Assembly: GCA_000310025.1 (NCBI GenBank)
Contig: FN649737.1
Span: forward strand, 3,353,521 to 3,378,562
Direction of reading: 5' to 3'
DNA: 25,042 bases
DNA from: Ectocarpus siliculosus
Taxonomy: Eukaryota > Sar > Phaeophyceae > Ectocarpales > Ectocarpaceae
Both the position numbers and the translations under genes were made by a program. Each line of letters starts with the position of its first letter. The first letter of the stretch is position 1. The notes beneath the pieces were generated by a model that was given only the letters and a program-made list of their open reading frames with translations, made no database searches and was not told the DNA's origin. Shown in pieces: positions 1-25,042 of the stretch.

Positions 1-3000
1 GACGGGGTTGGGTCAAGCGGAGGTTCTGCAGTGACCGGAGGGGCGGGTCCCGGTGCATCAACGGGCGGAGGTGTTGGACCCAGCGTGGGAGCTACGACTG
101 GCGACGGGGTCGGATCAAGCACAGGCTCTGTCGTGACGGGAGACAGGGGTCCCGGTGTCCCTTCGATAGATGTCGGACCCGGAGGCGGTGCTATGACAGG
201 CGACGGGGTTGGGTCGAGCAAAGGTTCTGTCGTCAGCGGAAGTACAGGTTCCGTTGTGTCTACGAGGAGAGATGGTGGACCAGGTGATCGTAAGGCCACC
301 TGCGAAGGGGTTGGGTCAAGCGATGGTACTGCCGTCACTGGGGGTACAGGGCCGGGTGTCTCTACGATATATGCTGGATCGGAAGTCAGTGCTGTCACGG
401 GCAAAAGGGTTGGGTCCACAGATGGTTCTGCCGTCAGCGGAAGTACAGGTCCCGGTGTGTCTATGGGAAGAGATGTTGGACCACGTGATGGTACGACCAC
501 CTGCGAAGGGGTTGGGTCAAGCGATGGTTTTGCCGTAACTGGAGATACAGTTCCTGGTATCTCTACGATGGATGTTGAACCCGGAGTCGGTGCTATGACA
601 GGCGACGGGGTTGGGTCGAGAGATGGTTCTGGCGTCGGCGGAAGTACATGCCCCGGTGTCTCTATCACGAATGTTGGACCAGGTGTTGGTACGACCACGG
701 GCAAAAGGGTTGGGTCAGGCGATGGTTCTGCCATCACTGCAGAGACTGGTGCTGGTGTTTCAATGGGAGGAGACGTCGAACCAGGAGAGGGTGCTATGAA
801 AGGCGACGGTGTTGGGTCGAGAAATGGTTCTGCCGTCAGCGGAAGTACCGGCCCCGGTGTCTCTATCACGAATGTTGGACCAGGTGTTGGTACGACCACC
901 TGCGAACGGGTTGGGTCAAGAGATGGTTCTGCCGTCACAGGAGGTACAGGTCCTGGTGTCTCTACGATAGATGGTGGACCAGGTGTTGGTGACACAACCT
1001 GCGAAGCGGTTGGGTCAAGCGATGGTTTTGCTGTGACGGGAGCCATAGGTACCGGTGTCTCTACCGGAGGAGTTGTTGGGTCAGTCGTCGGTCCTACGAC
1101 AGGCGACGGGGATTCAACCGATGGTTCAGCTGTGACCGAAGGTGCAGTCTCCGGTTTCTCTACGGGTAATGTTGGATAAGAAGTCGGAGCTACGGCGGGC
1201 GACGGGGTTGGATCAAGCAATGGTTGTGCTGTCGCTGGAGAGATAAATCCAGGTGTCTCCGAGGGAGATGTGGGATCTGAAGTCGGTTCTACCGAAGAAA
1301 ACAAGGTGGGGTCAAGCGATGGTTCTGCGGTCACTGGGAGGACGGGTCTTGGCGTCTCCGCGACAGACGTCGGATACAGAGTGGGTGTTATGACTGGCGA
1401 CGGCGTTGGGTCAACCAATGGTTCCGCCGTGACGGGAACAATGGGGCCGAGTGTTCCTCCGATAGATGTTGGATCAAGTGTCTGTGCTATGACAGGCGAC
1501 CGAGTCGGTGTTAGGACAGGTGAAGGGGTTGTGTTAGGCGATGGTTCTGCTGTGACCGTGGGCACAGGCTCTGGTGTCTCTACGAGAAACGTTGCGTCAG
1601 AAGTCGGAGCTACGGCTGGCGACGGGGTCGGGTTAACCGATGGTTCGGCCGTTATTGGACGGACCGGGTACAGCGTCTCTACGAGAGATGTTGGATCAGA
1701 TGTGGGTACGATTACCTGCTCAAAGGTTGGGTCAAGCGATGGTTCTGCCGTGACTGGGGGGACGGGCTCTTGAGTCTCTACCGTTAATGTTGGATCAGAA
1801 GTCGTTGCAATGACAGGCGACGGGATTGGGCCGAGAGATGGTTCTGCCGTCAGCGGAAGTTCAGGTCCCGGTGGTTGTACGATTGACACTGGACCAGGTG
1901 TTGGTGACACCATCTGCGAAAGGGTTGGGTCAGGCGATGGTTCTTCCGCTACTGGGGTGACAGGTTCCCGTGCTACGAGGAAAACTGTAGGATCTGGAGT
2001 CGGTGCAACAACGGGCGATGGGGTCGCGTCAAGCGATGGTTCTGTCGTCACCTGAGTCACGGGTCCCGATGTTTGCACAAAAGCTGTAGAAAAAGGAGTA
2101 GGTGCTACGACGATCGACGGGGTGGGGTTGAGGGATGGTTCTGGAGTGACCAGAGGAATCGGCCCTGCCATCTCTACAGGAAATGCTGGAAGAGCAGTCG
2201 GTGCTGCGACGGGCGATGGGGTTGCGTCAAGGGATGGCTCTGTCGTGACCTGAGCGACGGGTCCTGGTGTTTCGAAGAACGTATCCGACGTCGGTGCTAC
2301 AACGAGCGACGGGGTTGGTTCGAGGGACAGTTCTGCGGTGACTGCAAGAATAGGTCCGGATGTCGTCAAGGGAGGGTAAGTTGGATTTCGAGTCCGTCCT
2401 ATCACCGGCGAAAGGGATGACACAGCGGATGGTTCTGCCGTCCCAGTAAGGATGGGTCCCGGCGTTTCTGGGATAGAATTTGGACCCGGAGTCGATGCTA
2501 CGACCGACGACGGCAAGGTATCAAACGATGGTTCTGCTGTCACGGGAGGGACGGGTGCAGGCGTCTCTGCGATGGATGTTGGATTCAGAGTAGATGCTAC
2601 GACGGGCGACGGTTTTGGTGTCATGGCAGCAATAGGTCCTCGCGTCTCTATGACAGACGTTGGACCAGGAGTCGGTGCTAGGACAGGAGACGTGGTTGGG
2701 TCAAGCGATGGTTCCGCCATCACAGCACGGACGGGTCCTGGCGTCCCTACGATAAGCGTTGGACCAATAGTCGGTGCTACGACGGGCGACGCTGTCAGGC
2801 CAAGCGATGGTTCTGCTGTGACGGAAGGCACAGGTCCAGGTGTCTCTACAACAGACGTTGGATCAGGAGTGGGTGCTACGACCAGCGGTAGGGTTGGATC
2901 AAGCGATGGTTCTGCTGTGACGGGAGGCACAGGTCCCGGTGTCTCTACGAAAGATGTGGGATCAGGCGTTGGGACGACCACCCGTGGAGCGGTCGCGACC
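1..3000 (-). repeat. 99-bp coding tandem repeat, about 31 copies
   Basis: The landmark gatggttctg (plus strand; AEPS on the minus strand) recurs at 421, 523 (variant), 622, 721, 823 (variant), 922, 1021 (variant), 1120, 1219, 1318 and onward, at steps of 99 bp with occasional 102 bp. Steps are always multiples of 3. Copies are moderately diverged, so the array is older than the mini-exon array to its right. Confidence 0.9.
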
Positions 3001-3068
3001 GGTGATGGTTCTACTGTAGGAGGCGCAGGAGGGGTGGCTATAGGGGTAGGTACATTTGTCTCTTGCGT
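1..3068 (-). CDS. Large repeat exon of the P/T-rich protein (partial)
   Basis: Read on the minus strand in the frame whose triplets begin at multiples of 3, there is no stop codon from position 3146 to the left edge (about 1,047 codons). The plus-strand frames over the same DNA are broken several times (for example near 1179, 1773 and 2055). The proposed exon begins at 3068, after a CAG acceptor, at phase 0. The translation is a diverged 33-residue repeat of the form APTPDPTSVVETPGPVP then PVTAEPSLDPTPSPVV. It contains few aromatic residues and essentially no cysteine. Drift between copies is mostly substitution with in-frame spacing, as expected of a frame under coding constraint. The exon continues past the window, so its C-terminus is unknown. 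Confidence 0.8.
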
Positions 3069-6000
3069 CTGGATTACAGGCGCCGGAGTAACGACGACGG
3101 GTTGAGGGGTTTCCAGCAGAACAGGAGCAAGGGTTGTACCCCGTTAAGGTAGAGAGAGTGAGCGAGGGTTCGGGTTCAGTGAAGCACTAGCAAGGTTTGT
3201 TCTGGCTTCTAGCTTTCAGCTGACTCCTACCGGCGAAGAGTGGCGGGTTTGGTCGATGAGGAGGACCTCAAGGCTGTTGAAATCACAGATAGATCTTTAC
3301 CAGCTTTTGGGTAGCGGGCGCCTGGGACACAATTTCCTCGCGTTGTTTCGAAGTGCAGGGGCGTTGTCGGTTTGACAGTCTTTTGCAGGGAGATTTTTTG
3401 TTTACTCCTCCATGTGCTGTTGCGACTGCTGGGTGCATGCATATGTGTGGCGCAGGAGGGCTCATAGGAAACCCCTGTGCGTTGATGTTTTCGTTCCCAT
3501 CTGAGACATAAAATCCGTTGGCCATACCAGACACAAGACACATGTTCAAGCAAAGCAGGATCCACGATGGCCACCATCAAAACATGAATGAAACTCACCG
3601 GTGTTGGAGTATCGACAGGTTCCGGCTGTTTTTGAAAGTAGAGCGCGTGTCACGTAGGAGGTTCACGTCGAACCGCGAAAGGCGCACGGAGAAACACACA
3701 ACATGAGAGCATGAGACGGGGCGAGGGTCAACACCATGCAGTCCGAGCGTTCCTCTCCTGCAATTCCTCCACCCTTCAAGAAAAACAATACCAGGTCACA
3801 AGCCAGCACTCTTCACGTGGGCCCGCGCGACACACAACAGCGGCAGCTGTAGATTCAATTCACCTCCGCACACACACACCGGGACGACCACTTGGTACAT
3901 GTTTCGATTCTCCCCAAATCCAAGCAATTATGCCAGCACGCTAACGCAGGTAGGGCGTATCTCACCGTCGGTACAGGCGGCGCCTCGACGGGCGCGAGGG
4001 TAGGTATCACAGGCTCGGCGGTCTCGGCGACCGGCTCCGCGGTCACCGGGGCAGGAGTTTCTGGTACCACTGGAGTGGCCTGTTGGCCAAACAAACACAT
4101 TGACAAGCGTATCACAGTTTGCACGCGCGTTCAAGAAACGTCGACTTCGGTCGAGGCTCGATATCGGTCGAGGCTTAATATCTGACGTCGTCCAGCATAG
4201 GACATCGTGTCGAATCAACTGTTGGATCCCTGGCCGAGGCGTGTTTATCAGTCGATTTTTCATCTTCATCGCCAAAATCTGACTGTTTGCTACTCGATCG
4301 GGGGCGTTAGCTGTATCGACGGGTGGACACCCGTTGGTTAGTCGTGAAGGGTCTCTCGCATCTCCGGGCTAATCCTCGATTTCTAGGCCATGCTCGGAGT
4401 TCTTTCAACATACCGGCGCTGGGGTGGGGTCGACCACAGGCTCCGCAGTCACTGGAGCAGGCGTTTCAGGTACCACAGGTGCGACCTAGACGGTTTGCGA
4501 GGAAGGTTGTGGACGGGCAGTAGCTTTGACGAAGGAGAACGTGTGTGTGCTTGTCTACCATAGGTCCCTCAGCTCGTGGTTTGAAAAATAACTACGCAAA
4601 AACAATTGAAAAATATGCCCAGACTCCTCGCCACATGGCGGCGCTGGGGAGGGGTCGACCACAGGCTCCGCTGTCACTGGAGCAGGCGTTTCAGCTACCG
4701 CAGGTTCGACCTGAATGAGGACGCAGTGCAGCTTTTTGTCTTGGAAGCAAGAGCTCAAAATATGTTTGTCATGTACGTATGCCTTCGACAAAAAATCCGA
4801 ATGCATACTTTGACGTACACGTATGGGGGAAAGCCTGAACCGGAGTGCCTGCAGGGGTGCACTGCTACCCTTTCTCATATCTCCACTTTTTTTTTGGTCT
4901 CGTGAAGGTTTGGTTTGGGGTCATACGGATAAATTACGCTATGTAGGATCAGAAAAGCGTAAGAAAATCGGAGGTCACGACTCAAAAATGTCAGGTGAAA
5001 ACGTCCAAAGCATGGCTTCATCCTAGGCAAAAAATCTGGCGTCTAGATTTCACTTCTTATACTAAATCCTACGCAATAGACCCCTCCTCTTCCTCTCGAC
5101 TTTGACTTCAGCGAGGTTTGCAGGGCATCCCGGTCTACACTTGCAGAACACCTACCAACGGTTCTTTGACAACATCACCAACAAATCATGCTCTGCGTGG
5201 CTTGCCACATACCGGTGCTGGGGTGGGGTCGACCGCAGTCACCGGGACAGGCGTTGGATCTACAACCGGCGCGACCTGAAACATTTCGAAGAGGATAGTG
5301 TATATCGACGGCACTTCCAACAATCGTGATCGGACGGATGCGCATAATACTTCGATGTATATACCACATGTTTACGAAACCTCTGGACACCTAACCGCTC
5401 ACCGGTGCTGGGGTGGGGTCCACCACAGTCACCGGAGCAAGCGTTGGAGGATCTACCAACGGTGTTACCTGAACGATTGCGAGGACGGTAGTGGATGTTT
5501 CATGTCTTTGGACCATCGAGAACGTGTGTGTCATGTCGACAGCGCTTCCAACAATCGTGATTGGACGGATTTTTCTACCAAGCCTCAGACAACTAACCGC
5601 TTACCGGTGCTGGCGTGGGGTCGACCACAGTCACCGGAGCAAGCGTTGGAGGATCTACCAACGGTGTTACCTGAACGATTGCGAGGACGGTAGTGGATGT
5701 TTCATGTCTTTGGACCAACGAGAACGTGTGTGTCATGTCGACAGCGCTTCCAACAATCGTGACCGGACGGATTTTTCCACCAAGCCCAAGACAACTAACC
5801 GCTTACCGGTGCTGGGGTGGGGTCGACCACAGTCACCGGAGCAGGCGTTGGAGGATCTACCAACGGTGTCACCTGAACGGTTGCGAGGACGGTAGTGGAT
5901 GTGTCGTTTCTTTGGACCAACGAGAACGTGTGTGTCATGTCGACGGCACTTCCAACAATCGTGATAGGATGGATGCACATAATACTTCGATGTATGTACC

Positions 6001-9000
6001 ACATGTTTACGAAACCTCTAGACAACTAACCGCTTACCGGCGCTGGCGTGGGGTCGACCACAGTCACCGGAGCAGGCGTTGGAGGATCTACCAACGGTGT
6101 CACCTGAACGGTTGCGAGGACGATAGTGGATGTTTCATGTCGTTACAAAAGCCGAATGAGAACGTATGTGTCATGTCGACAATACTTCAACTAATCGTGA
6201 TCGGACGGACAAACTTCGAAACCCCATTTGTTAAGCAGCCTCTAGACAACTAACCGCTTACCGGCGCTGGCGTGGGGTCGACCACAGTCACCGGAGCAGG
6301 CGTTGGAGGATCTACCAACGGTGTCACCTGAACGGTTGCGAGGACGGTAGTGGATGTTTCATGTCGTTAAAAAAGGCGAAGGAGAACGTGTGTGTCATGT
6401 CGACAATACTTTCAACAATCATGATCGGACGGATTTTTCCACCAAGCCCAAGACAACCAACCGCTTACCGGTGCTGGGGTGGGGTCGACCACAGTCACCG
6501 GAGCAGGCGTTGGAGGATCTACCAACGGTGTCACCTGAACGGTTGCGAGGGCGGTAGTGGATGTTTCATGTCTTTGGACCAACGAGAACGTGTGTGTCAT
6601 GTCGACGGCACTTCCAACAATCGTGATCGGACGGATTTTTCTGCCAAGCCTCAGACAACCAACCGCTTACCGGTGCTGGGGTGGGGTCGACCACAGTCAC
6701 CGGAGCAGGCGTTGGAGGATCTACCAACGGTGTCACCTGAACGGTTGCGAGGACGGTAGTGGATGTTTCATGTCGTTACAAAAGCCGAATGAGAACGTAT
6801 GTGTCATGTCGACAATACTTCAACTAATCGTGATCGGACGGACAAACTTCGAAACCCCATTTGTTAAGCAGCCTCTAGACAACTAACCGCTTACCGGCGC
6901 TGGCGTGGGGTCGACCACAGTCACCGGAGCAGGCGTTGGAGGATCTACCAACGGTGTCACCTGAACGATTGCGAGGGCGGTAGTGGATGTTTCATGTCTT
7001 TGGACCAACGAGAACGTGTGTGTCATGTCGACGGCACTTCCAACAATCGTGATCGGACGGATATACTTCGAAACCTCAATTGTTGAGCAACATTCAGACA
7101 ACTAACCGCTTACCGGCGCTGGCGTGGGGTCGACCACAGTCACCGGAGCAGGCGTTGGAGGATCTACCAACGGTGTCACCTGAACGGTTGCGAGGACGGT
7201 AGTGGATGTTTCATGTCGTTACAAAAGCCGAATGAGAACGTATGTGTCATGTCGACAATACTTCAACTGATCGTGATCGGACGGACAAACTTCGAAACCC
7301 CATTTGTTAAGCAGCCTCTAGAAAACTAACCGCTTACCGGCGCTGGCGTGGGGTCGACCACAGTCACCGGAGCAGGCGTTGGAGGATCTACCAACGGTGT
7401 CACCTGAACGGTTGCGAGGGCGGTAGTGGATGTTTCATGTCTTTGGACCAACGAGAACGTGTGTGTCATGTCGACGGCACTTCCAACAATCGTGATCGGA
7501 CGGATATACTTCGAAACCTCAATTGTTGAGCAACATTCAGACAACTAACCGCTTACCGGCGCTGGCGTGGGGTCGACCACAGTCACCGGAGCAGGCGTTG
7601 GAGGATCTACCAACGGTGTCACCTGAACGGTTGCCAGGACGGTAGTGGATGTTTCATGTCGTTACAAAAGCCGAATGAGAACGTATGTGTCATGTCGACA
7701 ATACTTCAACTAATCGTGATCGGACGGACAAACTTCGAAACCCCATTTGTTAAGCAGCCTCTAGACAACTAACCGCTTACCGGCGCTGGCGTGGGGTCGA
7801 CCACAGTCACCGGAGCAGGCGTTGGAGGATCTACCAACGGTGTCACCTGAACGATTGCGAGGGCGGTAGTGGATGTTTCATGTCGTTAAAAAAGACGAAG
7901 GAGAACGTGTGTGTCATGTCGACGGCACTTCCAACAATCATGATCGGACGGATTTTTCCACCAAGCCCAAGACAACCAACCGCTCACCGGCGCTGGCGTG
8001 GGGTCGACCACAGTCACCGGAGCAGGCGTTGGAGGATCTACCAACGGTGTTACCTGAACGATTGCGAGGGCGGTAGTGGATGTTTTGTCTTTGGGCCAAG
8101 GAGAACGTGGTGTGTCATGTCGACGGCAGTTCTAACAATCGTGATCGGACGGACGCACATAATGCTTCGAAATATATATTCATGCTTAAGCAACCTCCAG
8201 ACAACTAACCGCTTACCGGCGCTGGCGTGGGGTCGACCACAGTCACCGGAGCAGGCGTTGGAGGATCTACCAACGGTGTCACCTGAACGGTTGCGAGGAC
8301 GGTAGTGGATGTCTTTTTATGTCTTTTGAGAACACAGGCGTGACGTGTAGAGTACAAAATAGGAAATCCCTGAGCTCACATGCACAATTTGATGCGCACA
8401 CACATGGGCCTACCGACGGCTCATTTGACGAAAATTCAGCAAGGGATGAGCAATGCTGTACACGAGTAGCTCGCCGCTTACCGGTGCTGGGGTGGGGTCG
8501 ACCACAGTCACCGGAGCAGGCGTTGGAGGATCTACCAACGGTGTCACCTGAACGGTTGCGAGGACGGTAGTGGATGTTTTGTCTTTGGGCCAAGGAGAAC
8601 GTGGTGTGTCATGTCGACGGCACTTCTAACAATCGTGATCGGACGGACGCACATAATGCTTCGAAATATATATTCATGCTTAAGCAACCTCCAGACAACT
8701 AACCACTTACCGGCGCTGGCGTGGGGTCGACCACAGTCACCGGAGCAGGCGTTGGATCTTCACCAGGTGTCACCTGGATAGTTACGGGGACGAGGCGGAA
8801 ACTCAACATCATGGGACGACACACCTACAACAGGGAGCCCAATAGAGCCTCGTTCGACCAATACATGTGACTGCCCACAACCAAAATTGAAGTAGAAAGA
8901 CGAACCCTCTCCGAGACCCCGCTTCGTACCGGTGCTGGGGTGGGGTCAACCGCAGTCACGGGAGCGGGCGTTGGATCTGGGTCGGGTGTCGCCTGGACAC

Positions 9001-12000
9001 ATGCAGACGCGGGGACGGTAGTGGACGCTCAATATCGTGGGACGAGGGAGAGAGTTTCAAAAACCTACAACCTGCGAGCGTCGTTCAACCACTACACGTG
9101 GCCTGTCTACACCCACAATACAACAGGAGAAAATGAAATCTCTCTGGAGATTTCTGCCACTTACCGGTGCTGGGGTGGGGTCGACCGCCGTCACAGGAGC
9201 GGGCGTTGGATCTGGATCAGGAGTCACCTGGACGGATGCAGATGCGGGGACGGTAGTGGACGCTCAGCATCATTGTACGAGGTATTCCGTGAATCACGCA
9301 TCTAAATGGAATTCCCTGAGAGCGTCGTTTAACCAATGCAAGTGGCTTCCACACCCAAAATACAACAGGAAAAATTGAAATCTCTTGAGATCCTGCTACT
9401 TACCGGTGCTGGGGTGGCGTCGACCGCAGTCACGGGAGCTGGCGTTGGATCTGGATCAGGTTCCACCTGGACAGATGCGAGGACGGTAGTGGACGCTCAA
9501 CGTCACGGGACAAAGGACATCCAGCGCATCACGATTCTACAACATTTCCTCGAGAAAGCCGTTCGACCAATAAAGACGGCCTACCGACACCCAACATGGA
9601 AAAGAACATAAAGACCCCGCCACTTACCGGTGTAGTTGTCGCCGGGGTCACAGGAGCGGGCGTTGGGTCTGGGCCAGGCAGGGTCTGGACGGTTGCGACG
9701 ACGGTTGTGGACAACAGGAATTTTGGAGTGTGCAGACAAACGTGGTGATGGCATCAGACGAAAAAGAAACGTAGCGACACGGAAGGTCCCCGTGGAGCTC
9801 TTGATTTCACGCAAAGGACCTACGATGTCATGAACCATGCAAGTGCAGTGCCAAAGCGCAACAATCCCCTTGCACAGCAGTCACCGCTCACCGGTGCTGG
9901 AGTGTCGGGAACGGGCGTTGGATCAACATCAGGCGTTACCTGGACGGTTGCAAGTATGGGGTCCGACGAGGGATGCGAGTGGTGCACAATCATTAGTTTC
10001 AGTCGTCAAGGAACACTCTGGGCAGCTACACACTTCGGACAAGGCACGCTAGATCACTCGCAATAGTGAATGCTCAAAATGGACGGGACTGGGCACAAAG
10101 GGCGCACGCCGTCGAGGACTACGGTCTGGCTTCATGTTTCTATGCACAATGATGGCGAGCAGCCCTATCCCGCCCCAATTGTGATGCCCCATCACCTCTA
10201 GCGAACAATCGCCTTACTCCACGCAAGCGGTCACCACCTACATTCACGGACGATACTTGCTTAAGGTGAGGTGCCGATGCGTCCACAAGGAAAACAAATG
10301 CAAGTTCCAACGGCTGTATTCGACGGGCAACTCTGTATATGCAACCAATATTCCGAGCTGCCTGAAAGACTCAACGCTCCTTCCGGCAGGAACACGGCGA
10401 ACTGCACGAACAAAAAAAACAAAAGGTTCCTAACTGCCGGGCTAGGTATGATCTACGGCGAAACATACCGGAGCGGGAGTCTCGGGAGTCGGCTCAGGAG
10501 TCGGCTCAGGGGGCTCCGCAACTGGCAGCAGCGTTGGAATCACCGGCGCCGGCGTCTTTTTGGCGGGGGCGGGGGGCGGGGGGGGGTAGACGGACAGAAC
10601 GAGGCAAGAGAGCGATGTGTCGAATATAAGACAGCGTTCTTGGTGCCTTCCTGGTTGTGCTGGCAGCTACAGGCAGTTACAAGGACCAGCACCACAATGC
10701 GTATACCCGATCACGGGCGGAGAGGGACAACTACACTCCCCAACCGAAGTCTCTCAAAATCAAACCCAAGCTAACGGCACCAACCAACATGTCGGGTAGT
10801 TCCCGATAGCGCCGCGAAACTGCTGTGTGCCTGGCCTGGTTTCTGCATCGCTAGGTATCACGATCGTCCATGACGGGGGCGGCAGGGTGCTTTTTGCCCA
10901 AAAGCAATGCACGCGCATGACCGGAAGCAGCTGAGCAACAAAACAAACTAGTAGGGGTTTCCTGTTTATGCCCGCCTACAAAAGGTCGGTGTAAAGTCGC
11001 TTGGCACGGATGGAGTATTCAAATTGTCTCATGCTCTGAAAAAGGCAGGGTGCCCTGTACAAGGCCGGTGTTTTCCACCGTGGCAAACGGCGGCCTTAAA
11101 CAGGGACCTCTCCTCTGAAACGGCCACCCACCCTAAACACGGACAGATACCGCTACTCGACGAAGATCGCCAAATGCGCAAGGCTGGCACGTGCGCAGGG
11201 CCATTAAGGGGAGAAATGGAACCACCGCCCACGCCCATCACAAAACAAACTGACCGTGTTCTTGCACCTTTGAGGACAAGATATGAACACACAGCACGCT
11301 TCGAAGGCGATTCGGCCCCGGACAGGGAGCAGCTTCGCCACGCCCGTTGCTACTGTTGGGTGGAGGTATACCCGCTGCGGCGTGCCGCGCTCTTGAAAAA
11401 ACTGTTGCTCCCTAATACACGAGCACCACGAGGCTAACTTCTTTTGTACTGCTGTTCTGAAAAAAGTAAGGCAACAACTTCATGTCTGGCTATGCACGGA
11501 AAACTTTCTCCGCGTTGTCCTGCGTGCCAACTGGATGAAGCGCTTCAGGCGGGTGACGGAAGAAGATACCCTTACCCCTGTAGCTTCGCCAATAAGGCTT
11601 TCCCTAGGGCCTGGTAGGCATACGTGACTGAAATAAATGGAGTACCTAAAAGATAGAGAAGGCATGTACGATCTGGGGTTGCGGGGCCCGTTTAAAACCT
11701 CGGCCCCAATAGTTCAACAGGTGTGCATCGACTAAATCAAGCTCACGAAGGGACTGGGTTGGTATGCTGTAAATCAAATCCTTCTCGGGTACACAAATGC
11801 AAATGAAGGCATACACCGTCGGAACTCTTAAAGGTACAAGGCTCGAGCTCTTGAGAAACCCGAGGGTGCAAGTTGCAACCCAAAACCAAAAAAGGGGCAA
11901 ACGTATTGGGCCCGGACAGAGAACAATCAAACTCGCTCGGAAACAGGTGTGCTTCAATATTTGACACACGAAAAATGCATCGAAGAATCCGGTCCCAGCC

Positions 12001-13238
12001 TACTATACGATTAGTATGCATACTGCTGTGTGCGTACGTTTCGTACGCGCCCGTCCCCTTCCTTTTCGAAGGAATAAAATACAATCGATACATCCACGCA
12101 ACGACTGCTTTTTTAGAAAGTAAACCACTCTTCGCAGCAGACAAGTCAACATGAGCTATGTACCTCTACAGGCTCCCACATGTTGGCATTACTGTTGATG
12201 CAAGACCTATCTATTTAGTGACTCGTTATTCTGGAAACCTTCCACAAAACGTAGTTTGTACTATTGTACATACGGTAATTAGGAGTTGACACATGGTCGA
12301 CTGGGCGTTTGTTGTATTTAAGGAATAATAAAAACACATACAGAAAGAGTACCCATTCGAGATATACCCACAGCAGTCGAACGGGATGTGGTGGAGTCTT
12401 TTCAGTGAGTGGAGGGAAACCGGCTGGGTACTGGACTTATTTCGAGTCTTTTTAAGTCTATACACCGATGATTTATACCAGTGATGCCAGCTGGTGCTAT
12501 TTAAGTACAAAAACATCTGTACTGTTATATATTACGGCCGCGCTACTGCATGCAACCATCTGCGCTTCCCCTGCCGAATAAGTTGTACCAGGTACAACAG
12601 TAAGTGAACAAATTAACGCACGACAGCAGTGAAAGAAAAAGGAGAAAAGAGCGTTCCTGGTTCTAAACCGCAGGCAGATATAAGGAACACGTTTGAGGCA
12701 AGTGGATGAGTTTCAAAAACCAACGGTATGCCCAGTTGTCCCCATCGGGATGTCTGTGTGCGAGGCTCTGCTTGGATTCCTAACAAGGAGTACGTCTGAT
12801 ACGCTGTTGTTTTTGTTGTATTTCTCTATAGCGGCCTGCCGTTGTTAATCTCATCACTGAATGCTTTCTACGTGGTTATATTTTGATATTTTGGAGTATT
12901 TCGCACGGCACCGCAGTGCTCCAACTTTTTACCGGTACAGCAGTACAGCAGCAGTACCTCTTTTCTCTGGGGGTTGCACTACATAAATCAAAGACAATAA
13001 GAAGTCGCCCGCTCACCACCAATACTACAACAGAGGAAGGAATGCCTCCCTCGCCTTCATGCAGAAGAGTCTATGATACAAGGCGTTTGCTGTGTGACAG
13101 GTAAATAGCATTTTCCGTCTCTCTTTTCATCATTTTTTGCTCTCTTACCGTTGGTGCGTCCGGCGTCACAGGAGACGGCGTTTCTCCCGGGGCTATCGTC
13201 ACAGGAGCCGGCGTCTCTCCCGGGGCTGGCGTTGACAT
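1..13238 (-). CDS. Multi-exon Pro/Thr/Val-rich repeat protein, 3' end beyond left edge
   Basis: Gene-level call. Exons in transcription order: 13149-13238, 10469-10555, 9892-9939, 9628-9684, 9404-9466, 9165-9227, 8930-8992, 8711-8773, fifteen 66-bp exons (8482-8547 down to 5403-5468), 5213-5275, 4414-4485, 3966-4079, 3599-3625 and 1-3068. A further copy at 4639-4710 lacks a donor. Every exon is a multiple of 3 and joins at phase 0; acceptors end in AG and donors are GTAAGY, GTGAGY, GTATGT or GTACGA. The spliced frame gives about 1,620 codons in the window, almost all variants of 'DPTPAPVT' and 'ETPGPVPPVTAEPS'. No catalytic or binding domain is visible, and neither a signal peptide nor a C-terminus is seen. 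Such repeats suggest a stalk, cell-wall or surface linker; that is inference. The strand is set by the minus frame being free of stops over 3 kb and by repeated splice signals around each small exon. Confidence 0.75.
3069..3598 (-). other. Intron with a disrupted 3' splice region
   Basis: Proposed intron between the 27-bp exon and the large exon. Its 3' part holds a strong pyrimidine stretch on the minus strand (about 3148-3168) followed by TAA (3144-3146) but no AG. About 24 repeat-like codons follow (APVLLETPQPVVVTPAPV) before the first AG that gives phase 0, at 3069-3070. The true exon may therefore once have begun near 3143. No other gene is seen here. Confidence 0.45.
3599..3625 (-). CDS. 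27-bp microexon of the P/T-rich protein
   Basis: On the minus strand a pyrimidine-containing intron end (CTTTCAAAAACAG) is followed by nine codons, PEPVDTPTP, then the donor GTGAGTTTC. It is phase 0 on both sides and ends in TPTP just before the donor, as the other exons end in TPAP. It is short but agrees with its neighbours in phase, composition and splice signals. Confidence 0.55.
3626..3965 (-). other. Intron, no other feature seen
   Basis: Intron between the 38-codon exon and the 27-bp microexon. It includes a short CA run near 3870-3881. No additional P/T-type exon with splice signals was found. Confidence 0.4.
3966..4079 (-). CDS. 114-bp exon of the P/T-rich protein
   Basis: 38 codons between acceptor CCAACAG and donor GTGAGATACG, phase 0-0. 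It begins ATPVVPETPAPVTAEPV and continues with AETAEPVIPTLAPVEAPPVPT. The 'ETPAPVTAEPV' block links the small exons to the 33-residue units of the large exon, making this exon intermediate between the two repeat types. Confidence 0.7.
4414..4485 (-). CDS. 72-bp exon of the P/T-rich protein
   Basis: 24 codons, VAPVVPETPAPVTAEP then VVDPTPAP, between acceptor CCGTCTAG and donor GTATGTTG, phase 0-0. It combines the ETPAPVTAEP core of the large exon with the VVDPTPAP ending of the 66-bp exons. Confidence 0.75.
4639..4710 (-). pseudogene. Donor-less copy of the 72-bp exon
   Basis: 24 codons, VEPAVAETPAPVTAEP then VVDPSPAP, preceded by a good acceptor (TTCAG). At the place where the 4414-4485 exon has GTATGT, this copy has CCATGTGG, so no GT follows the last codon. 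If retained, the frame reads on through intron sequence to a stop near 4555. It is probably skipped (an intron from 5212 to 4486) or spliced at a cryptic donor. Its coding body shows no stop. Confidence 0.65.
4711..5212 (-). other. Intron, no other feature seen
   Basis: About 500 bp between the 63-bp exon at 5213 and the donor-less exon. Short AT-rich and T-rich tracts are present. No further exon of the repeat type was recognised. Confidence 0.4.
5213..5275 (-). CDS. 63-bp exon of the P/T-rich protein
   Basis: 21 codons, VAPVVDPTPVPVTAVDPTPAP split at the usual VT block. The acceptor is TTTCAG, the donor GTATGTGG, phase 0-0. It is related to the 66-bp array exons but lacks the extra Pro codon, and it forms the 3' border of the homogeneous array. 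Confidence 0.75.
5403..8547 (-). CDS. Array of fifteen 66-bp mini-exons
   Basis: Exons (left-right coordinates): 5403-5468, 5605-5670, 5807-5872, 6038-6103, 6262-6327, 6469-6534, 6671-6736, 6895-6960, 7114-7179, 7338-7403, 7557-7622, 7781-7846, 7988-8053, 8217-8282 and 8482-8547. Each is exactly 22 codons, phase 0-0, reading VTPLVDPPTPAP then VTVVDPTPAP. Thirteen are identical at protein level by eye; the two left-most have TLAP for TPAP. Acceptors are CCGTTCAG or a close variant (CGATTCAG or CGTTCAG). Donors are GTAAGCGG, with GTGAGCGG at 5402 and 7987. Introns are 136-199 nt and are themselves repeated. The plus-strand reading frames crossing the array, rich in Arg, Cys and Trp, are antisense shadows. 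Any number of these exons can be skipped without a frameshift. Confidence 0.85.
5403..8710. repeat. Tandem exon-plus-intron repeat with higher-order structure
   Basis: Unit lengths between exon ends are 202, 202, 231, 224, 207, 202, 224, 219, 224, 219, 224, 207, 229, 265 and 229 bp. Introns fall into families. A 158-nt type occurs at 6104, 6737, 7180 and 7623; a 153-nt type at 6961 and 7404; 136-nt at 5469, 5671 and 6535; 141-nt at 6328 and 7847; 163-nt at 8054 and 8548. All share a core around gtgtgtcatgtcgac and aatcgtgatcggacgga. The 224+219 pair makes a 443-bp dimer. Confidence 0.85.
8711..9466 (-). CDS. Four 63-bp mini-exons of the P/T-rich protein
   Basis: Exons 8711-8773, 8930-8992, 9165-9227 and 9404-9466, each 21 codons and phase 0-0. 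They begin VTPGEDPTPAP, ATPDPDPTPAP, VTPDPDPTPAP and VEPDPDPTPAP and end VTVVDPTPAP, VTAVDPTPAP (twice) and VTAVDATPAP. Acceptors are TCCAG and donors GTAAGTGG, GTACGAAG, GTAAGTGG and GTAAGTAG. Introns are 156-176 nt and more diverged than in the 66-bp array; the two to the right share text such as caacaggaaaa. The exons are the same family as the array but older, without the extra Pro codon. Confidence 0.8.
9628..9684 (-). CDS. 57-bp exon of the P/T-rich protein
   Basis: 19 codons, TLPGPDPTPAPVTPATTTP, between acceptor CGTCCAG and donor GTAAGTGGCG, phase 0-0. It keeps the DPTPAPVT core but has a shortened, diverged end. Confidence 0.75.
9892..9939 (-). CDS. 48-bp exon of the P/T-rich protein
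   Basis: 16 codons, VTPDVDPTPVPDTPAP, between acceptor CGTCCAG and donor GTGAGCGG, phase 0-0. The central VT-x-V block present in neighbouring exons is missing. Confidence 0.7.
9940..10468 (-). other. Intron, no other feature seen
   Basis: A 529-nt intron between the 87-bp and 48-bp exons. No repeat-type exon, RNA gene or mobile element is recognised in it. Confidence 0.4.
10469..10555 (-). CDS. 87-bp exon of the P/T-rich protein
   Basis: 29 codons, TPAPVIPTLLPVAEPPEP then TPEPTPETPAP, ending at donor GTATGTTTCG. Upstream on the minus strand is an almost pure C tract followed by AAAAAG, which is taken as the acceptor (phase 0). The PEPT triplets resemble those of the 27-bp exon. Confidence 0.6.
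10556..13148 (-). other. Presumed large intron carrying a dispersed repeat
   Basis: About 2.6 kb separates the 87-bp exon from the next recognisable P/T-type exon. ORFs of up to 137 codons occur on both strands (for example plus 11024-11437), but none shows a family motif, exon signals or a partner. A CAGCAG/GTAC-rich patch lies near 12930-12957. The dispersed repeat at 12318-12522 is the only structured element seen. The region may instead be upstream flank if the gene starts near 10.6 kb. Confidence 0.4.
12318..12522 (-). repeat. Dispersed element, copy 1 (inverted relative to copy 2)
   Basis: The reverse complement of this stretch matches plus-strand 22215-22412 nearly base for base, from GTACAGATGTTTTTGTACT to TTATTATTCCTTAA, with a few substitutions and short indels. 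No ORF of a transposase or reverse transcriptase is present, so it is a short non-autonomous repeat or a fragment. It begins with a short palindromic GTAC...GTAC motif. Confidence 0.85.
13149..13238 (-). CDS. 90-bp exon of the P/T-rich protein, possible first coding exon
   Basis: 30 codons from an ATG at 13238-13236: MSTPAPGETPAPVT, IAPGETPSPVT, PDAPT, then donor GTAAGAGA. It repeats an APGETPxPVT block twice and is phase 0 at its 3' end. The ATG sits in a good context (GCGGCCATG). No phase-0 acceptor with a pyrimidine tract lies just upstream, so a start here is plausible. A secretory signal peptide is absent, which is odd if the product is extracellular; an upstream exon cannot be excluded. 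Confidence 0.5.
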
Positions 13239-15654
13239 GGCCGCCCCTTTTCTATTCCGGAGAACCTTCCCTGGGTGTGTGCTCTACTATTTCGGTGCCC
13301 TCCTTCCCTCTCGTTTCTCGCGCCCCTCCCAACCCGAAAGCTTCTCCAAAATCTCACAGCAAGAGCGCGCAGGGTCCACAACCAATCCACTTCTTTTTCC
13401 GGCCGGGTAGAGCAGCAGCGGCGGAGACCCGGGGCACGGGGGAAGGTTAAATCGATGGCAAACGAATGGTTCACGTGGACATGGTGGCACTATTTAGGCG
13501 TGTGTGTCGCTGCCGATAGGTGCATGTTGGCCGCGTGTTGATGTGTGACTCCCGATTCGATTCTGAGAGAGCCGGACAAGCAGCATCAACAACGCGCGTA
13601 TATCGCATGAGGAACCAAAGTGCCCCCCCGCGCCCCTCCTGGCAAAGTACCTACCTACCCAACCAAGAGGTGCACCTTGTCTAAAACCGGGAATGTGCAA
13701 GAGCACGCACATCACGTGTGTGCCAGCCACCCCTGCAATGGGATTAGGGAAGAGAGATGGGGGGTAAATCGCCTAGAGCCCCGGACGGTGCTGCCCGGTT
13801 TTTGCGTCACACAAAACACACACACACACACGCCAAAAAATTGCTATGAACAAAAAACAGTTCGGGAGGCGGAGAGTGGGAAAACAACCCGCCTTTCTTG
13901 TCCGTTCCCTGTTCGGTCGGTGGATGGCGATGTGTCCATCGTCGTCCGCTACGGTTTTTCGAGCTGCCACCAAGCATTTCGCAAAGGGGTGGCAGTGATC
14001 GCAGAGGATGTGCGAGCCATCAACCTCATGTGCAATCATCACTCTCGTGTCCAAGGTACACGCTCCTCTTGACTACCGCCCGGAGAGAGGACAAGACAAC
14101 AAGGGCAAATCACATCACACATCACAGGTCCTCTGTGTACGTGATCGTGATCTGACATTCGAAAGAACGAAATGTCTACCACAGAACCGCCCCGCGCGCC
14201 GGCGCGCATGTGCGTGCGCGGAATCCGTTGGAACTGACCCCAACTCGCTCACCTAGTAAACGGCCACGGATCCCTCCTTCCTCCCTCCCCGTTGAAAGGG
14301 TCCTCGCACGCCCCAAGGGGCTGCTATGTCAGAGGCAAACACAGACAGGACAGGCACACCCACAGCAGCTTGTTGTTTGTCGCCGAACAGCAAACAAAAT
14401 ATGAGAATGTTCGGCTGATCTTCCTCGGCTCTCCTGCCCTTTTCTCCAAGGGCGCGCCGGCGGGCAGGGCTCCGGCGGTCAAGGGCGTTCTAGGGCGTCC
14501 GCCTAACCCCGCGTAGCACCCGCGCCTATTTTGGCTTAGGCGAGGCCTGCGGCTCTCTCTTCTCAACGTGTACAATCCAGGGATGAAGAGAGGGAGTCTT
14601 TGACGAAAAAAATCGGAAGCCTGGAAGCTGGAAGAGTGCATCTGCCCCCCCGTATTTTTTTATCCCACCTGCGGCTCCCCCTGTTCAAAATGTAGGGAAA
14701 AATGACGGTCCGCCCCACCCGCCTTCCTTTGTCTGTTGGTTGTGTCTCAAGACGAGATCGCACAGCAGTAAGTATAGTAGTCGTAGTGCTACATGCGAGT
14801 GGCCTAGGACGTACGTTTGTGTAGCTCGATAAGCCATCCACGCGCAGCGAAGCGAGGGAATTGTCGGAAAGATGGTGGGATTGAGCCTCTGACTGCTTGA
14901 TCCCCGGGTTAATTCAAAACCTTGCCTGATTGTTCTCCCGCATCCAGCTGTATCACAACCAACCAAGCTCACAAGTGATGAACCTACACTCCATGGTGTA
15001 CCACAATGCGCACAGTAGGTGCACAGGCACAGGCTTTCACGCTTACTTCATCAGGATGTTTTCGCTACGTAAATCCAACGCCAAGCAGCCGCGACTATGT
15101 ATGTACGAACGGAAAAACCAAAACTCCAGTCGCAAGTGCGGCAAACAAATAGCACCGAAAGCTGACCGGAAAGCAGTGCGTCGACGTCCGTTGACACCTG
15201 CTGCCTCACGCATGATGTAATGGACACATCATACAAATAATGGTTCATCCGACGTACCGAAGGTAGGGTAGGCCACTTGCCCTAGAGAACGAGAGAGCAC
15301 CTGCAACCGAGGAGCTGTTGGAGCCGGAATCGTTGCACATGCTTGTTGAGTCAGCAGCGGCAGCGGTATGTTGACCGCTGTCGCAGGATTCGAGATCCAA
15401 ACAAAGAAGTATTAGTCTACATTGCACAGATCCACAGGAGAACGCGTCTTGCGCAACACACAGATACATATCTAAAATACAGCAGTAGTATCTTACGCGT
15501 GTCGATTGCCTGCCCCGTTTTGGGCTGAATACTCTGGCACAGGCACGGATCACCTTGTTGCAGTCAGGGCAGTGCATCCTCACAACACACGAGGAGCTTC
15601 TTCGTTGATGTGTAAGCACATTTTGCTGGCAGTAGTTGAGGAAAGAAGCAGAGC
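13239..15654. other. Divergent intergenic region
   Basis: This 2.4 kb separates the minus-strand repeat gene from the plus-strand EF-hand gene and should hold both promoters. No TATA-like or other defined element is convincing. It includes a CA microsatellite (13811-13832), a perfect 14-bp palindrome gcgcgccggcgcgc (14194-14207) and GC-rich patches around 14440-14530. No RNA gene was recognised. Confidence 0.4.
13811..13832. repeat. CA microsatellite
   Basis: A short (CA)n run seen directly in the sequence. Confidence 0.9.
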
Positions 15655-18600: not shown

Positions 18601-20115
18601 GACTCTGCAGTACATATCTCGGCATCTGCTTTAGAAGCTTAACCAGTACGTTCCGCGCCCTCCACGTGCCCCACACGTGGATGTTAAAAAACACACAGTC
18701 CACAGTAGTTTGCCTCGTCTTGGAAACGACACCGGTTCACACGGTGTGGTGCGAAAAGAAAGAGAGTCATCTTGAAGATTTGTGGTGTAGGTTCGAGCAC
18801 GCATGCGGACGGCCAGATCTTGGCACGGAAAACGCACTTCTCCCCTCGGCAATCTACTGCTGTACGTAGTCGATCCTCGAGACACTACCCACAGAGCTCG
18901 AGCTACCCCCTGCCCTTCCTTAACAACGAAAAGTGGCGCGTTCTTGCTTCATCTTGATGACTACTGCGAAGTGGCCTTTACGCTTGTCGATATCGACGGC
19001 GACGGCCAGGTGTCAAAGAATGATCTCGTGCGATACCTCGAGCTGATCACGGCCGCGCCGGAGGGTGTGAAGATAGACCTGGTGAGTGGTTGAGACCACT
19101 CAAACCGACTCACGTTTGACCTTGCAATTGCTTGCTCGGGGTAAAGTGGTCGGGTGCACAAGCAGGAGCCAATGAGTCCAACATGTTAGATAAGTCCAGC
19201 ATATTAGAGTTAGTGTCGCGTGAAGGGAAGCACAGTTTGAATGGGCCATAACGAGGTTGTGAATCTGCTTTTGGTGGGAATATACCGGTTCGACACCTGG
19301 TTCAGCATTACATCAATACTGAGATGGGCGGTGTTCATCCAGATATTAGGGCTTAGGTAAGGGTATCACAGGCCTCGTGCAGTGACTGCGCTCACTGGAA
19401 GCTGGCTGATTACAGAAGATGGAGACCAGATTGCATGACAGACGGCAATAAAAATATTGTATTCGACAAGAAAGACGCCGTGTTTACGACCAGGCAACGC
19501 CATCTCCACTTCGGGAGCACGAAGACGAAGGATTTGCGTGTGTGGAGTTGCCCGTGATATTGACGAGAAAATCGCTCGTTTCCGACCACGCGCGTGTTGT
19601 AGACGGTCTCGTTTTCATGGAAGGCAACCACCACAAGGAACTGACCATTTTGTTGTGCATGGGAATCATCTGGATTGGAGGATGACAAGGAGTTCACTTG
19701 AGGAACTTTTCCCCCAACAATCCCCCCTCTCCCCTCCCTGTCATACACATACCACCACCCGACCATCCAGAACGCCGTCGCTGCGAGAGTCATCGAGGAG
19801 GGTGCGTCTGCGCCAGGAGTCACGTCGTTGTCGCTCGGTGACTTCATCAAGGTAGTTTACCGTTTGGGCCAATTTTGTTTGAGAAAGGTCTGATCTTCAG
19901 ACACGGCCACGCCTCAAGAGATCTGGTGAAGTATCTGAGCACCCCCCATGTGTCACGAACAACGAAATAAGGTAGTCTTTCCCCCTCTCAATTCCCGTTC
20001 CTGTCCTATTCCCTGCCAAACTGTCAAACAATGCTATTCTGGCCTCCATCCCCCGGCGGACATTCAGATCATGGGTGCCGCAGACTTTGCAGACAAGCTG
20101 ACGATCCCATTGTGA
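15655..20115 (+). CDS. EF-hand protein of calcineurin B / CHP type
   Basis: Eight exons: 15655-15983, 16695-16882, 17085-17180, 17353-17429, 18171-18258, 18972-19081, 19771-19851 and 20068-20115 (stop TGA). All phases agree and give 338 residues. Residues 1-150 are Ser/Arg/Asn/Gly-rich and probably disordered. From about 170 the protein follows the calcineurin B family. GFTYKEL leads to a degenerate EF1 (ASFITREEFLEIP) and the conserved 'NPL..R' helix (VANNPLRERLL). EF2 is degenerate (FDSMDNLKFK). Then come FVRSFRSFNNPS and QKLRMAFTLV, and one canonical EF3 loop, DIDGDGQVSKND (266-277), with ligands at positions 1, 3, 5 and 12. EF4 is degenerate (TSLSLGDFIK), and the protein ends ADKLTIPL. 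The ATG is preceded by an in-frame TGA at 15637. Probable role: a Ca2+-responsive regulatory subunit; the partner is unknown. The acceptor of exon 5 is the least certain junction. Confidence 0.8.
17430..18170 (+). other. Intron 4 of the EF-hand gene, with unexplained open frames
   Basis: The donor GTGAGC follows the codons for LKFK; the proposed acceptor is TTAAACCAG at 18162-18170. The interval contains two open stretches. Plus 17440-17652 begins TFISFAQAMS. An ATG-less frame at about 17695-17899 follows a T-rich acceptor-like tract and is followed by GTGAGG. Neither joins the gene in phase. Confidence 0.45.
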
Positions 20116-21480: not shown

Positions 21481-21483
21481 TCC

Positions 21484-21540
21484 AAGAAAAAGGGGGTCAA
21501 TCAAGAAAAAGGGGGTCAATCAAGAAAAAGGGGGTCAATC
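21484..21540 (+). repeat. Three perfect 19-bp direct repeats
   Basis: aagaaaaagggggtcaatc occurs three times head to tail with no mismatch. It is too short and too few for a CRISPR array and has no spacers. Confidence 0.95.
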
Positions 21541-21599
21541 AATGCTGGATTGGGGGTCGGGTGCGATCTCACCGACCCCGGTGCGGAAACCATGCCGTC

Positions 21600-23570: not shown

Positions 23571-24196
23571 ATGGCTCAGCCCCTTCCTGCCTTCATCCCC
23601 GGAAGCGATGTGCTCCTTCGTGCAAATAGCAGGTAACGGACGCACGATTAGCGCCTGCACTCGAGGTTTTGTTACTCGAAGTGACCCGTTGGTCAGTGGT
23701 GAACAGCGCCAGCACATGATGACCACGATGACGACGTTGTACCTACTGCTGTTGCCGGTGAAATGGACCTATGACACGATGAATGCGTGGAGTTCTTGAG
23801 CCAGCCGAGTCGTTCAAAGCCAGGTATCTAAGCACTGACGATACAGCATCGCGTTCGTATCGATCCCGGAGACTAAAATCAGTAATTCTGCAAGGGAAAG
23901 TTGTTCAGAAAATCATCCACCTGTACAACTGGTATGTGATCACGCTCAGGTCAGAGGTCGTATGTGTTTCGCCGGTAGGATCCGAGATCCTCAGTCGGGT
24001 CTATGCCCTGATTCGTGCCATCCTCTTGGTGCGGGAAATTCATGTGCCCGATTTGCTTGCCTTGCCCCCTTTCGTCGATCGTGAAGATCTATCGGCAGAT
24101 GATGTGGTGTTGGACGTGGGGTGCGGGGACGGGCGCGTGCTGGTGACCATGGCGAAGGTTCTCGGGTGTCGAGGGATAGGCATCGATGTCTCGCAG
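23571..24196 (+). CDS. Class I SAM-dependent methyltransferase, 5' part (two exons)
   Basis: Exon 1 is 23571-23632 (ATG in the strong context GCGCGCCATGG; donor GTAACG). Exon 2 is 23995-24196 (acceptor ATCCTCAG; donor GTAGTA). Phases agree and give 88 residues ending at phase 0. After MAQPLPAFIPGSDVLLRANS comes a hydrophobic/basic helix (RVYALIRAILLVREI), then PPFVDREDL. Motif I follows, VVLDVGCGDGRVL (58-70), whose GCGDG loop binds S-adenosylmethionine, and an acidic residue at the end of strand 2 (IGIDVSQ, D85) would bind the ribose. Spacing resembles the FAM173/ATPSCKMT-like 'PFV...D.G.GDGR' methyltransferases, but with half the fold missing the substrate cannot be named. The intron-1 coordinates rest on phase and splice consensus only. 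Confidence 0.7.
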
Positions 24197-25042
24197 GTAG
24201 TATCCATCAAATACTGCAGCAGTCTCTTCCCGTGTGTGTGTGTCTTTACTATTAGCATCGACCGCGCTAACCGGCTGACCAATCAAAATACGCCAGTCTC
24301 AATGCGGCAGAAAACAGATTTTGCTTGTAAAAGGCATGATCTGGGACCCCGTGAGGGGGCGTCATGGGGGAGGTGTGTGCGTGTGTGTGCGTGTGGTTGA
24401 ATGCCACTTGGGTGCGCCCGCTTTCTGAACTGCACATCACCCTGGTAGACTTGTTTAGGGGCTCTCGTTTGTCAGAGGGGGCTCGGTACGTTGTCGAAAA
24501 CCTACTGTTTGGACCAGTTCGGAAATTTAGAAGGTACTAAGCCGAGACCGGCACGGTTTTGGTTGCAAAGACAAAAACCACAACCCGAATACGGCAAGAT
24601 GGGAGAACGCTCTCCCCCCCTCGAATATGTATGTCGCCCCGGGTGGAATAACTTCCAGAAAACGCTCTGAACCGTTGGGAGCGGCAAACTACGCCATGGT
24701 CGGGAGAACACACGCAAGGTTGCAAGGAACGCGTCCGTAGTACTTTGACTCTTCGTCGTATTTGGTGTATAGCATTCTCTTTGTGATGGAACTCCCCTGC
24801 CCCTGCCCCCCTTCACTCATACGTAAGAGTGCTGGAAACAGTTTGTTTCCACGACAGCGGTATTGCACGTTTTTCCCTGCTTACGGCGCAATCCAGCCCC
24901 CCCCCCCCTCACCCCCCCCGGGTTTGCCATCGGGGTTGGGGTTTCGTCGCTTGGCAACGACGTTGTAAAACAACCCAATTCACTTCGTGAACTCTGCAAC
25001 CAGGTTACCGTTTTTCTTTTACCTCAGTTTTTTTTTTGGAGG
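24197..25042 (+). other. Presumed intron or continuation of the methyltransferase gene
   Basis: Starts at the donor after GIDVSQ. TG-rich microsatellite-like stretches occur near 24233-24241 and 24372-24396, and a C-rich tract at 24896-24920. No exon encoding the expected next methyltransferase segment could be recognised, so the rest of the gene probably lies beyond the right edge. Confidence 0.4.

Follow-up and report, generated by a model that had tools for sequence, protein, structure and literature searches.

Exon arrays in which each repeat occupies an exon of its own are generally old and diverged, and coding repeats that were amplified recently are usually found in a single exon. Fibrillar collagen is encoded by symmetric phase-0 exons with a uniform length of 54 bp that specify a repetitive extended chain, the PEVK exons of titin are short and in-frame, and mucins have a Pro/Thr/Ser-rich composition. 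AGP motifs are defined by many AP, TP, SP and VP pairs, and the AGP/HRGP composition criterion asks for at least 50% Pro+Ala+Ser+Thr together with AP/SP/TP/VP pairs. Exon arrays of brown-algal LRR-ROCO and NB-TPR genes were reportedly described by Zambounis in 2012.

In the available part of PMC11378527, brown-algal LRR-ROCO genes carry tandem, alternatively spliced 72-bp phase-2 LRR exons, which encode a folded LRR, four sites of which are under diversifying selection, and an NB-TPR exon-array precedent is mentioned. The titin PEVK segment is presented, in the excerpt of PMC6469411, as a proline-rich spring region assembled from many exons, with highly repetitive PEVK-C exons, internal duplications and an exon number that varies across mammals. 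Animal mucins with VNTRs are large glycoproteins whose tandem repeats vary in number (excerpt of PMC13345508), and brown-algal AGP-like core proteins have a P/A/S/T-rich backbone (excerpt of PMC8307928).

Here we report a probable brown-alga gene with fifteen near-identical 66-base exons and a Pro/Thr-rich product, located in a window of 25,042 nucleotides (the whole stretch of DNA that was analysed) of Ectocarpus siliculosus. It may be possible to adjust the length of the protein by 22 residues at a time. The array resembles LRR-ROCO genes in having one repeat per exon and exons of a single length and phase. However, the 72-bp phase-2 LRR exons of those genes were not found in it: its exons are 66 bp, phase 0 and encode a Pro/Thr-rich linker, and the LxxLxxL pattern is absent from the array peptide by eye. 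The LRR-ROCO precedent invoked in the sequence-only reading is thus real (PMC11378527, available part), but its selective picture is the opposite, since the ROCO exons diversify and the exons described here are near-identical and conserved. With titin PEVK the array shares a repetitive proline-rich region split over many exons; titin is an animal muscle spring, whereas the array protein looks extracellular, and a run of identical 22-residue exons is not mentioned in the excerpt of PMC6469411. Mucin repeats reside in one large exon instead of one exon per repeat; in our gene, that arrangement is confined to the separate frame at 1-3143, which is one giant repeat exon. Collagen has similarly uniform, symmetric phase-0 exons, but these are not near-identical and encode another motif. 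The AGP-like proteins share the P/A/S/T-rich composition with AP, TP, SP and VP pairs; the excerpt of PMC8307928 does not mention an exon array.

Layout and splice sites of the array

The array spans 5403..8547 on the minus strand, and each 66-bp phase-0 exon is followed by an intron of 127-199 bp. Exon 1 (VTPLVDPPTPAPVTVVDPTPAP) lies at 8482..8547, followed by exon 2 at 8217..8282, exon 3 at 7988..8053, exon 4 at 7781..7846, exon 5 at 7557..7622, exon 6 at 7338..7403, exon 7 at 7114..7179, exon 8 at 6895..6960, exon 9 at 6671..6736, exon 10 at 6469..6534, exon 11 at 6262..6327, exon 12 at 6038..6103, exon 13 at 5807..5872, exon 14 at 5605..5670 and exon 15 at 5403..5468. The 66-bp unit is open at all 15 positions, from 8547-8482 through 5468-5403, and at the sequence level every exon has splice sites on both sides: TTCAG stands directly before 15/15, and the donor is GTAAGC in 13 and GTGAGC in 2. 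The peptide VTPLVDPPTPAPVTVVDPTPAP is encoded by 13 of the 15 units, and exons 14 and 15 (the units at 5670 and 5468) differ by a single Pro-to-Leu change, Pro10Leu. Counting five exons of 63 bp, 20 exons have phase-0 introns on either side. TRF independently recovered 5386-8312 of the array, with periods of 202, 224 and 443. The copy number of 15 is that of one assembly of near-identical repeats. These data confirm the sequence-only reading of fifteen 22-codon, phase-0 exons with their own acceptors and donors and 13 identical peptides, and support the proposed exon-per-repeat layout of a Pro/Thr-rich linker made of frame-neutral units, all 15 being symmetric.

The array units would be spliced in. 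All 19 introns between 9404 and 5276 hold an in-frame stop if retained, and their lengths fall in all three classes modulo 3; unspliced read-through of the array was rejected because of these stops. On the plus strand, open frames extend across the units, the longest with 192 residues. Splice sites were scored with a small model trained on 12 TCP-1 junctions from elsewhere in the genome. For this model, 32 of 64 TCP-1 matches were used and 20 profile-adjacent pairs were tested, giving one solution in 14, two in 1 and none in 5; two of the 14 junctions, without a G before the donor, were dropped before model building, so that the model leans towards consensus. By this measure, the array donors rank in the 97th-99th percentile of the window's minus-strand GT, and the acceptors, which are moderate, in only the 91st percentile of its minus-strand AG. 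The array introns are short for the genome, as the 12 TCP-1 introns measure about 338-878 bp.

Regulation at the RNA level is possible, though we doubt it: the 15 cassettes could be variably skipped, so that one allele would yield a ladder of isoforms in 22-residue steps. The units are symmetric, almost identical and nearly equal in site scores; a neighbouring open exon (4639..4710) has lost its donor, which leaves skipping or read-through as its only fates; and the tandem LRR exons of brown-algal ROCO genes are reported as alternatively spliced (PMC11378527, available part). However, uniform sites are equally needed for constitutive inclusion, and five of five intron stretches tested gave no sign of an RNA structure to direct a choice, their folds being less stable than the shuffle mean (z about +1.0 to +1.4).

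Conservation of the exons

Mean divergence between units is 2.6% in exons versus 18.6% in introns, which means that the exons are conserved about sevenfold better. None of the 15 exons has an indel or a stop, and the introns contain several indels. Across all 15 units, 5 of 66 exon columns are variable versus 63 of 98 gap-free intron columns; for units 2-14 the counts are 4/66 and 44/134 (Fisher P = 1.5e-5, with columns not fully independent). The splice edges outside the exons are also conserved. We therefore favour the reading that the units are real coding exons, as far as their pattern of change can tell. It is quite improbable that the array is dead, i.e., a minisatellite-like tandem duplication or pseudogene with functionless passenger exons: such an origin fits the recent near-exact tandem copies, the donor lost in one neighbouring exon, the frame changes in the Pro/Thr-rich region past the N run and the failure of a simple scan of 10.4-20 kb to find a usable signal peptide, but not the sevenfold difference, the intact exons or the kept splice edges.

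The changes in 4 of the 5 variable exon columns are silent (P = 0.034, small sample), which also speaks against a dead array. The same result bears on whether focused gene conversion, rather than selection on the protein, made the exon cores uniform. Unit-to-unit conversion or unequal exchange is well supported (see below), but conversion would give silent changes no advantage over replacement changes. Among six exon types, moreover, 11 of the 21 variable sites fall at third, 6 at second and 4 at first positions, and focused conversion does not account for the conserved edges outside the exon; we regard this explanation as improbable.

Exchange between units and origin of the introns

The array introns combine a few types in mosaic fashion, and some pairs of units are duplicated near-exactly, which argues that copy number changed by exchange or conversion. 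Intron blocks recur in units 4, 6, 8 and 11 at 99-100%; between units 5 and 7 a single base differs, and the two-unit period is 443 bp. In the four-gamete test, 110/325 site pairs were incompatible (Rm 9). These sequence patterns thus give good support to conversion or unequal exchange among the units. Exons and introns are homologous by tandem duplication and were duplicated together in blocks. Exon shuffling, as the sequence-only reading had it, holds for past exchange between units; judged by its sequence, however, the array is an intragenic tandem exon duplication, not a product of shuffling between genes.

DNA, pattern and protein searches of the 189-Mb genome found no copy of the array exon or intron DNA outside the array gene. 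The pattern PTPAP|GTRAG had 18 matches, 17 in the array gene and 1 on C22, against 1 for the reversed control, and the 700 bases surrounding the C22 match held no exon array. A 32-base exon pattern had 0 exact matches in the viral and prokaryote collections. As for a ROC-COR in the array gene, the genome's only reported COR-A match lies on contig C17 (2 candidates), and part of the region downstream of the array reads N; a single match does not show that ROCO is absent, because exons were searched one by one. For EsV-1-7 domains, 880 first-look candidates were obtained and all 150 that were scored and listed exceeded the cut-off, so that the genome has at least 150; this would fit a brown alga, probably of the Ectocarpales.

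Introner-type gain, in which related introns were repeatedly inserted into a once-intronless repeat exon, is very improbable. The array introns are indeed short and related, and the same gene holds an intronless frame with a module that looks similar by eye. However, related introns dispersed in other genes were not found: with one array intron as query, 18/18 genome-wide matches lay inside the array gene, as did 16/16 for the stretch 8714-9530 including introns, in a search that may overlook common words. Moreover, duplication involved exon and intron jointly. An introner origin was accordingly judged unlikely.

Flanking exons and protein character

The array forms the central part of a more extended series of phase-0 exons rich in Pro/Thr, with further candidates on both sides; the sequence-only reading had left out this series with its 63-bp relatives and donor-less exon. 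All features lie on the minus strand. Upstream, 63-bp relatives are at 8711..8773 (followed by an intron nearly the same as the one after array exon 2), 8930..8992, 9165..9227 and 9404..9466; they differ in length from the array exons by one codon. Beyond them are phase-0 exon candidates of 57 bp (TLPGPDPTPAPVTPATTTP, 9628..9684, acceptor only 49th percentile), 48 bp (VTPDVDPTPVPDTPAP, 9892..9939, splice sites scored) and 87 bp (Pro-rich, 10469..10555), and a candidate first coding exon (MSTPAPGETPAPVT..., 13149..13238) without a signal peptide, which makes a provisional 5' end. In the scan of 10.4-20 kb, one hydrophobic N-terminus was found (14122); it has no GTRAG donor in its frame and therefore provides no usable signal peptide. 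Downstream are another 63-bp relative (5213..5275), the 72-bp open module at 4639..4710, with CC for the donor GT and thus a decayed or skipped exon, and phase-0 candidates of 72 bp (4414..4485, TAG acceptor, 61st percentile), 114 bp (3966..4079) and 27 bp (a microexon, 3599..3625, acceptor 74th percentile).

A Pro/Thr-rich open frame without introns, 1,047+ residues long and containing 33-residue repeats, occupies 1..3143 and runs into N. By eye, it contains a module similar to that of the array. The 3' end of the gene runs into 10,878 N, beyond which Pro/Thr-rich frames show several frame changes and a transmembrane-like segment may or may not belong to the gene; Pfam at E 0.01 found no domain in 7 frames from there. 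Pro+Ala+Ser+Thr content is 64% in the 22-mer and 57.5% in the 1,047-residue frame, which has 125 AP/SP/TP/VP pairs, so the product is AGP/HRGP-like in composition. The array protein would be surface-exposed and O-glycosylated.

Discussion

We consider it likely that the array encodes an extensible linker in the product of a large minus-strand gene, a Pro/Thr-rich, AGP- or mucin-like protein probably of the cell surface, and that the array consists of tandem-amplified cassettes under purifying selection. We propose the following course. First, one codon would have been added to an ancestral 21-residue module with phase-0 introns at both ends (63 to 66 bp, the direction we infer). Second, repeated unequal exchange and conversion among units would have multiplied exon plus intron in tandem to 15 copies. 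Third, purifying selection would hold the peptide and the splice edges while the introns drift. Each unit is a symmetric cassette; thus gain, loss or skipping shifts the protein by exact 22-residue steps. Copy number, and perhaps splicing too, may still be variable. Frame neutrality at the DNA level does not depend on introns, because an intronless 66-bp repeat is equally neutral; the introns would add an option at the RNA level. A length dial of a surface glycoprotein with two levels, heritable unequal exchange between units and fast RNA skipping that could leave out any number of cassettes, both in conserved 22-residue steps, with a similar module also in an intronless, DNA-only form in the same gene, is an extension that we regard as unlikely.

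What appears new here is an exon-per-repeat array of the titin PEVK or brown-algal LRR-ROCO kind whose exons are near-identical and conserved. Since the 15 exons are still almost identical and the introns record the exchanges, one gene shows how such arrays can grow. The array may provide a clean test case for whether linker length is tuned by splicing or by copy number, in cells or in lineages, and the similar module with and without introns in one gene would serve as a natural internal comparison.

Layout of the exon array

The minus strand of 4600-9600 was read and the units were then mapped by pattern, which confirmed the claim of the sequence-only reading that fifteen 66-bp exons each carry their own acceptor and donor, with 13 of the 15 encoding the same peptide. 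Numbered in gene direction on the minus strand, the exons lie at 8547-8482, 8282-8217, 8053-7988, 7846-7781, 7622-7557, 7403-7338, 7179-7114, 6960-6895, 6736-6671, 6534-6469, 6327-6262, 6103-6038, 5872-5807, 5670-5605 and 5468-5403. The peptide is VTPLVDPPTPAPVTVVDPTPAP in 13 exons, and the last two (14 and 15) carry Pro10Leu. TTCAG stands directly before all fifteen exons, and they are followed by GTAAGC (13/15) or GTGAGC (2/15). Tandem Repeats Finder detected the portion 5386-8312, with periods of 202, 224 and 443.

The array is the middle part of a longer exon series. Five 63-bp relatives on the minus strand, encoding VTPDPDPTPAPVTAVDPTPAP or a variant, start at 9466, 9227, 8992, 8773 and 5275; the 66-bp form has one additional Pro codon. 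When these five exons and the array form minus its extra codon are treated as six exon types, the variable sites fall at third (11), second (6) and first (4) codon positions. Further phase-0 Pro/Thr-rich exon candidates were read from the minus-strand sequence at 10555, 9939, 9684, 4485 (peptide VAPVVPETPAPVTAEPVVDPTPAP), 4079 and 3625, and another at 13238 is a possible first exon. The 72-bp Pro/Thr module at 4710-4639 is fully open with an intact acceptor, but CC replaces its donor GT, which makes it a probable case of a cassette that is skipped or in decay.

Splicing signals

All 19 introns between 9404 and 5276 would bring in-frame stops if retained, and their lengths span all three classes modulo 3; therefore, only a spliced transcript could yield a coding product. 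An independent yardstick came from chaperonin (TCP-1) genes at other places in the genome (64 matches, 32 used), with junctions solved from profile coordinates: of the profile-adjacent pairs (n=20), a single GT/AG solution existed for 14, two solutions for one and none for five. Twelve junctions, left after removal of two doubtful ones, formed a small splice model, by which the array donors reach the 97th-99th percentile of the window's minus-strand GT (n=1,746) and the acceptors the 91st percentile of its minus-strand AG (n=1,346). Two of the unrelated TCP-1 donors, CGG|GTGAGC and ACG|GTAAGC, are similar to the array's CCG|GTAAGC. Two points count against the splicing model: the weak acceptors of three exon candidates outside the array (9684, 49th; 4485, 61st; 3625, 74th percentile), and the shortness of the array introns compared with 12 chaperonin introns of ~338-878 bp. 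In a separate observation, all five array-intron stretches tested had less stable folds than the shuffle mean (z ~+1.0 to +1.4).

Gene ends and surroundings

Downstream, a minus-strand frame is open from 3143 to the window edge, comprising at least 1,047 residues of intronless, Pro/Thr-rich 33-residue repeats whose core, ETPxPVxxVTAEPxxDPTP, is similar by eye to the exon at 4485; thus both repeat layouts, intronless and exon-per-repeat, seem to occur in one gene. Genome search placed the window at C12:3353521-3378562 of the 189.5-Mb assembly, with 10,878 N directly past its low edge, downstream in gene direction. Past this N run, a stretch on the same strand (L006, C12:3333521-3343520, minus) holds further Pro/Thr-rich repeat frames with several frame changes, for which assembly errors, introns and decay are candidates, and a second stretch (L007) contains a transmembrane-like segment (GMFVLFLVALLLGTCGCLWAILGFC; minus strand, ~8817-9284 of L007) after Pro/Thr-rich frames; all of this may or may not be part of one giant gene. 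Seven frames from beyond the N run had no Pfam match at E 0.01. A simple minus-strand scan of 10.4-20 kb found one hydrophobic N-terminus, at 14122, without a GTRAG donor in frame, and hence no usable signal peptide in that interval.

Plus-strand frames at 18791-19093 and 23783-24400, with weak EF-hand and methyltransferase matches under Pfam cut-offs, probably belong to adjacent genes of opposite orientation. A perfect 19-bp tandem repeat (CAAGAAAAAGGGGGTCAAT, 3.2 copies) lies at 21483-21542. Across the genome, EsV-1-7 cysteine repeats are abundant (880 first-look candidates; all 150 scored exceed the cut-off), and some of them form long tandem frames such as C30:3303043-3304857. This abundance points to a brown alga; the single COR-A match found gives no further support for that.

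Conservation and exchange of units

Alignment of all 15 exon-plus-intron units, with units 1 and 15 placed less surely, gave a mean pairwise divergence of 2.6% for exons against 18.6% for introns. No indel occurs in the exons, and intron length lies between 127 and 199 bp. Variation affects five of the 66 exon columns, four at silent third positions and one as Pro/Leu (P ~0.034 for at least four of five being silent by chance). Across units 2-14, 4/66 exon columns vary against 44/134 gap-free intron columns (Fisher P = 1.5e-5; shared ancestry of the units makes the columns less than fully independent). The intron edges of these units are nearly constant: +3 (A/G) is the sole variable position among the ten bases at the intron start, and the seven bases directly preceding the exon are invariant.

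Intron types recur, with units 4, 6, 8 and 11 being 99-100% identical, units 5 and 7 differing by a single base, and units 3 and 10 sharing 95% identity; their order fits duplication in pairs, as seen in the 443-bp period. In units 2-14, 110 of 325 site pairs (26 informative sites, 3 exonic) fail the four-gamete test, requiring at least nine exchanges, although recurrent mutation could account for some conflicts. Array unit 2 has nearly the same intron as the one that follows the 63-bp exon at 8773, which indicates a common recent history of the 63-bp and 66-bp parts. Genome searches with the array exon, intron and peptide found no match outside this gene, and the stretch 8714-9530, introns included, matched within this gene only; such searches may miss common words, and N runs hide sequence. 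With these two reservations, the search results argue against mobile introns.

The best account of these patterns is that a single symmetric cassette of exon plus intron, lying within a Pro/Thr-rich linker, was amplified in tandem, that purifying selection would maintain the peptide and splice edges, and that unequal exchange would shift the unit number. The earlier proposal of 22-residue steps through unequal crossing-over or RNA skipping is partly supported, in its frame-neutral cassettes and past exchange between units; its frame neutrality at the DNA level is independent of introns, because any 66-bp coding repeat has the same property.

Comparison with known systems

Brown-algal ROCO genes encode one LRR per 72-bp phase-2 exon, with four sites under diversifying selection and alternative splicing (PMC11378527), the exons of titin PEVK-C are described as a homogeneous, highly repetitive series that contains duplications and varies in length (PMC6469411), and animal mucin repeats sit within one large exon (PMC13345508). 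The array has its layout in common with ROCO and PEVK-C.

Its composition resembles that of animal mucins and AGPs. Among the open-licence papers listed, titles and abstract starts gave no description of such a Pro/Thr-rich exon array in brown algae. Judged from sequence, the array is real and rather striking, set apart from all four systems by its near-identity and conservation. What its introns would contribute is the predicted option of RNA skipping and a tolerance of lost splice sites, of which the module at 4710-4639 may be an example.
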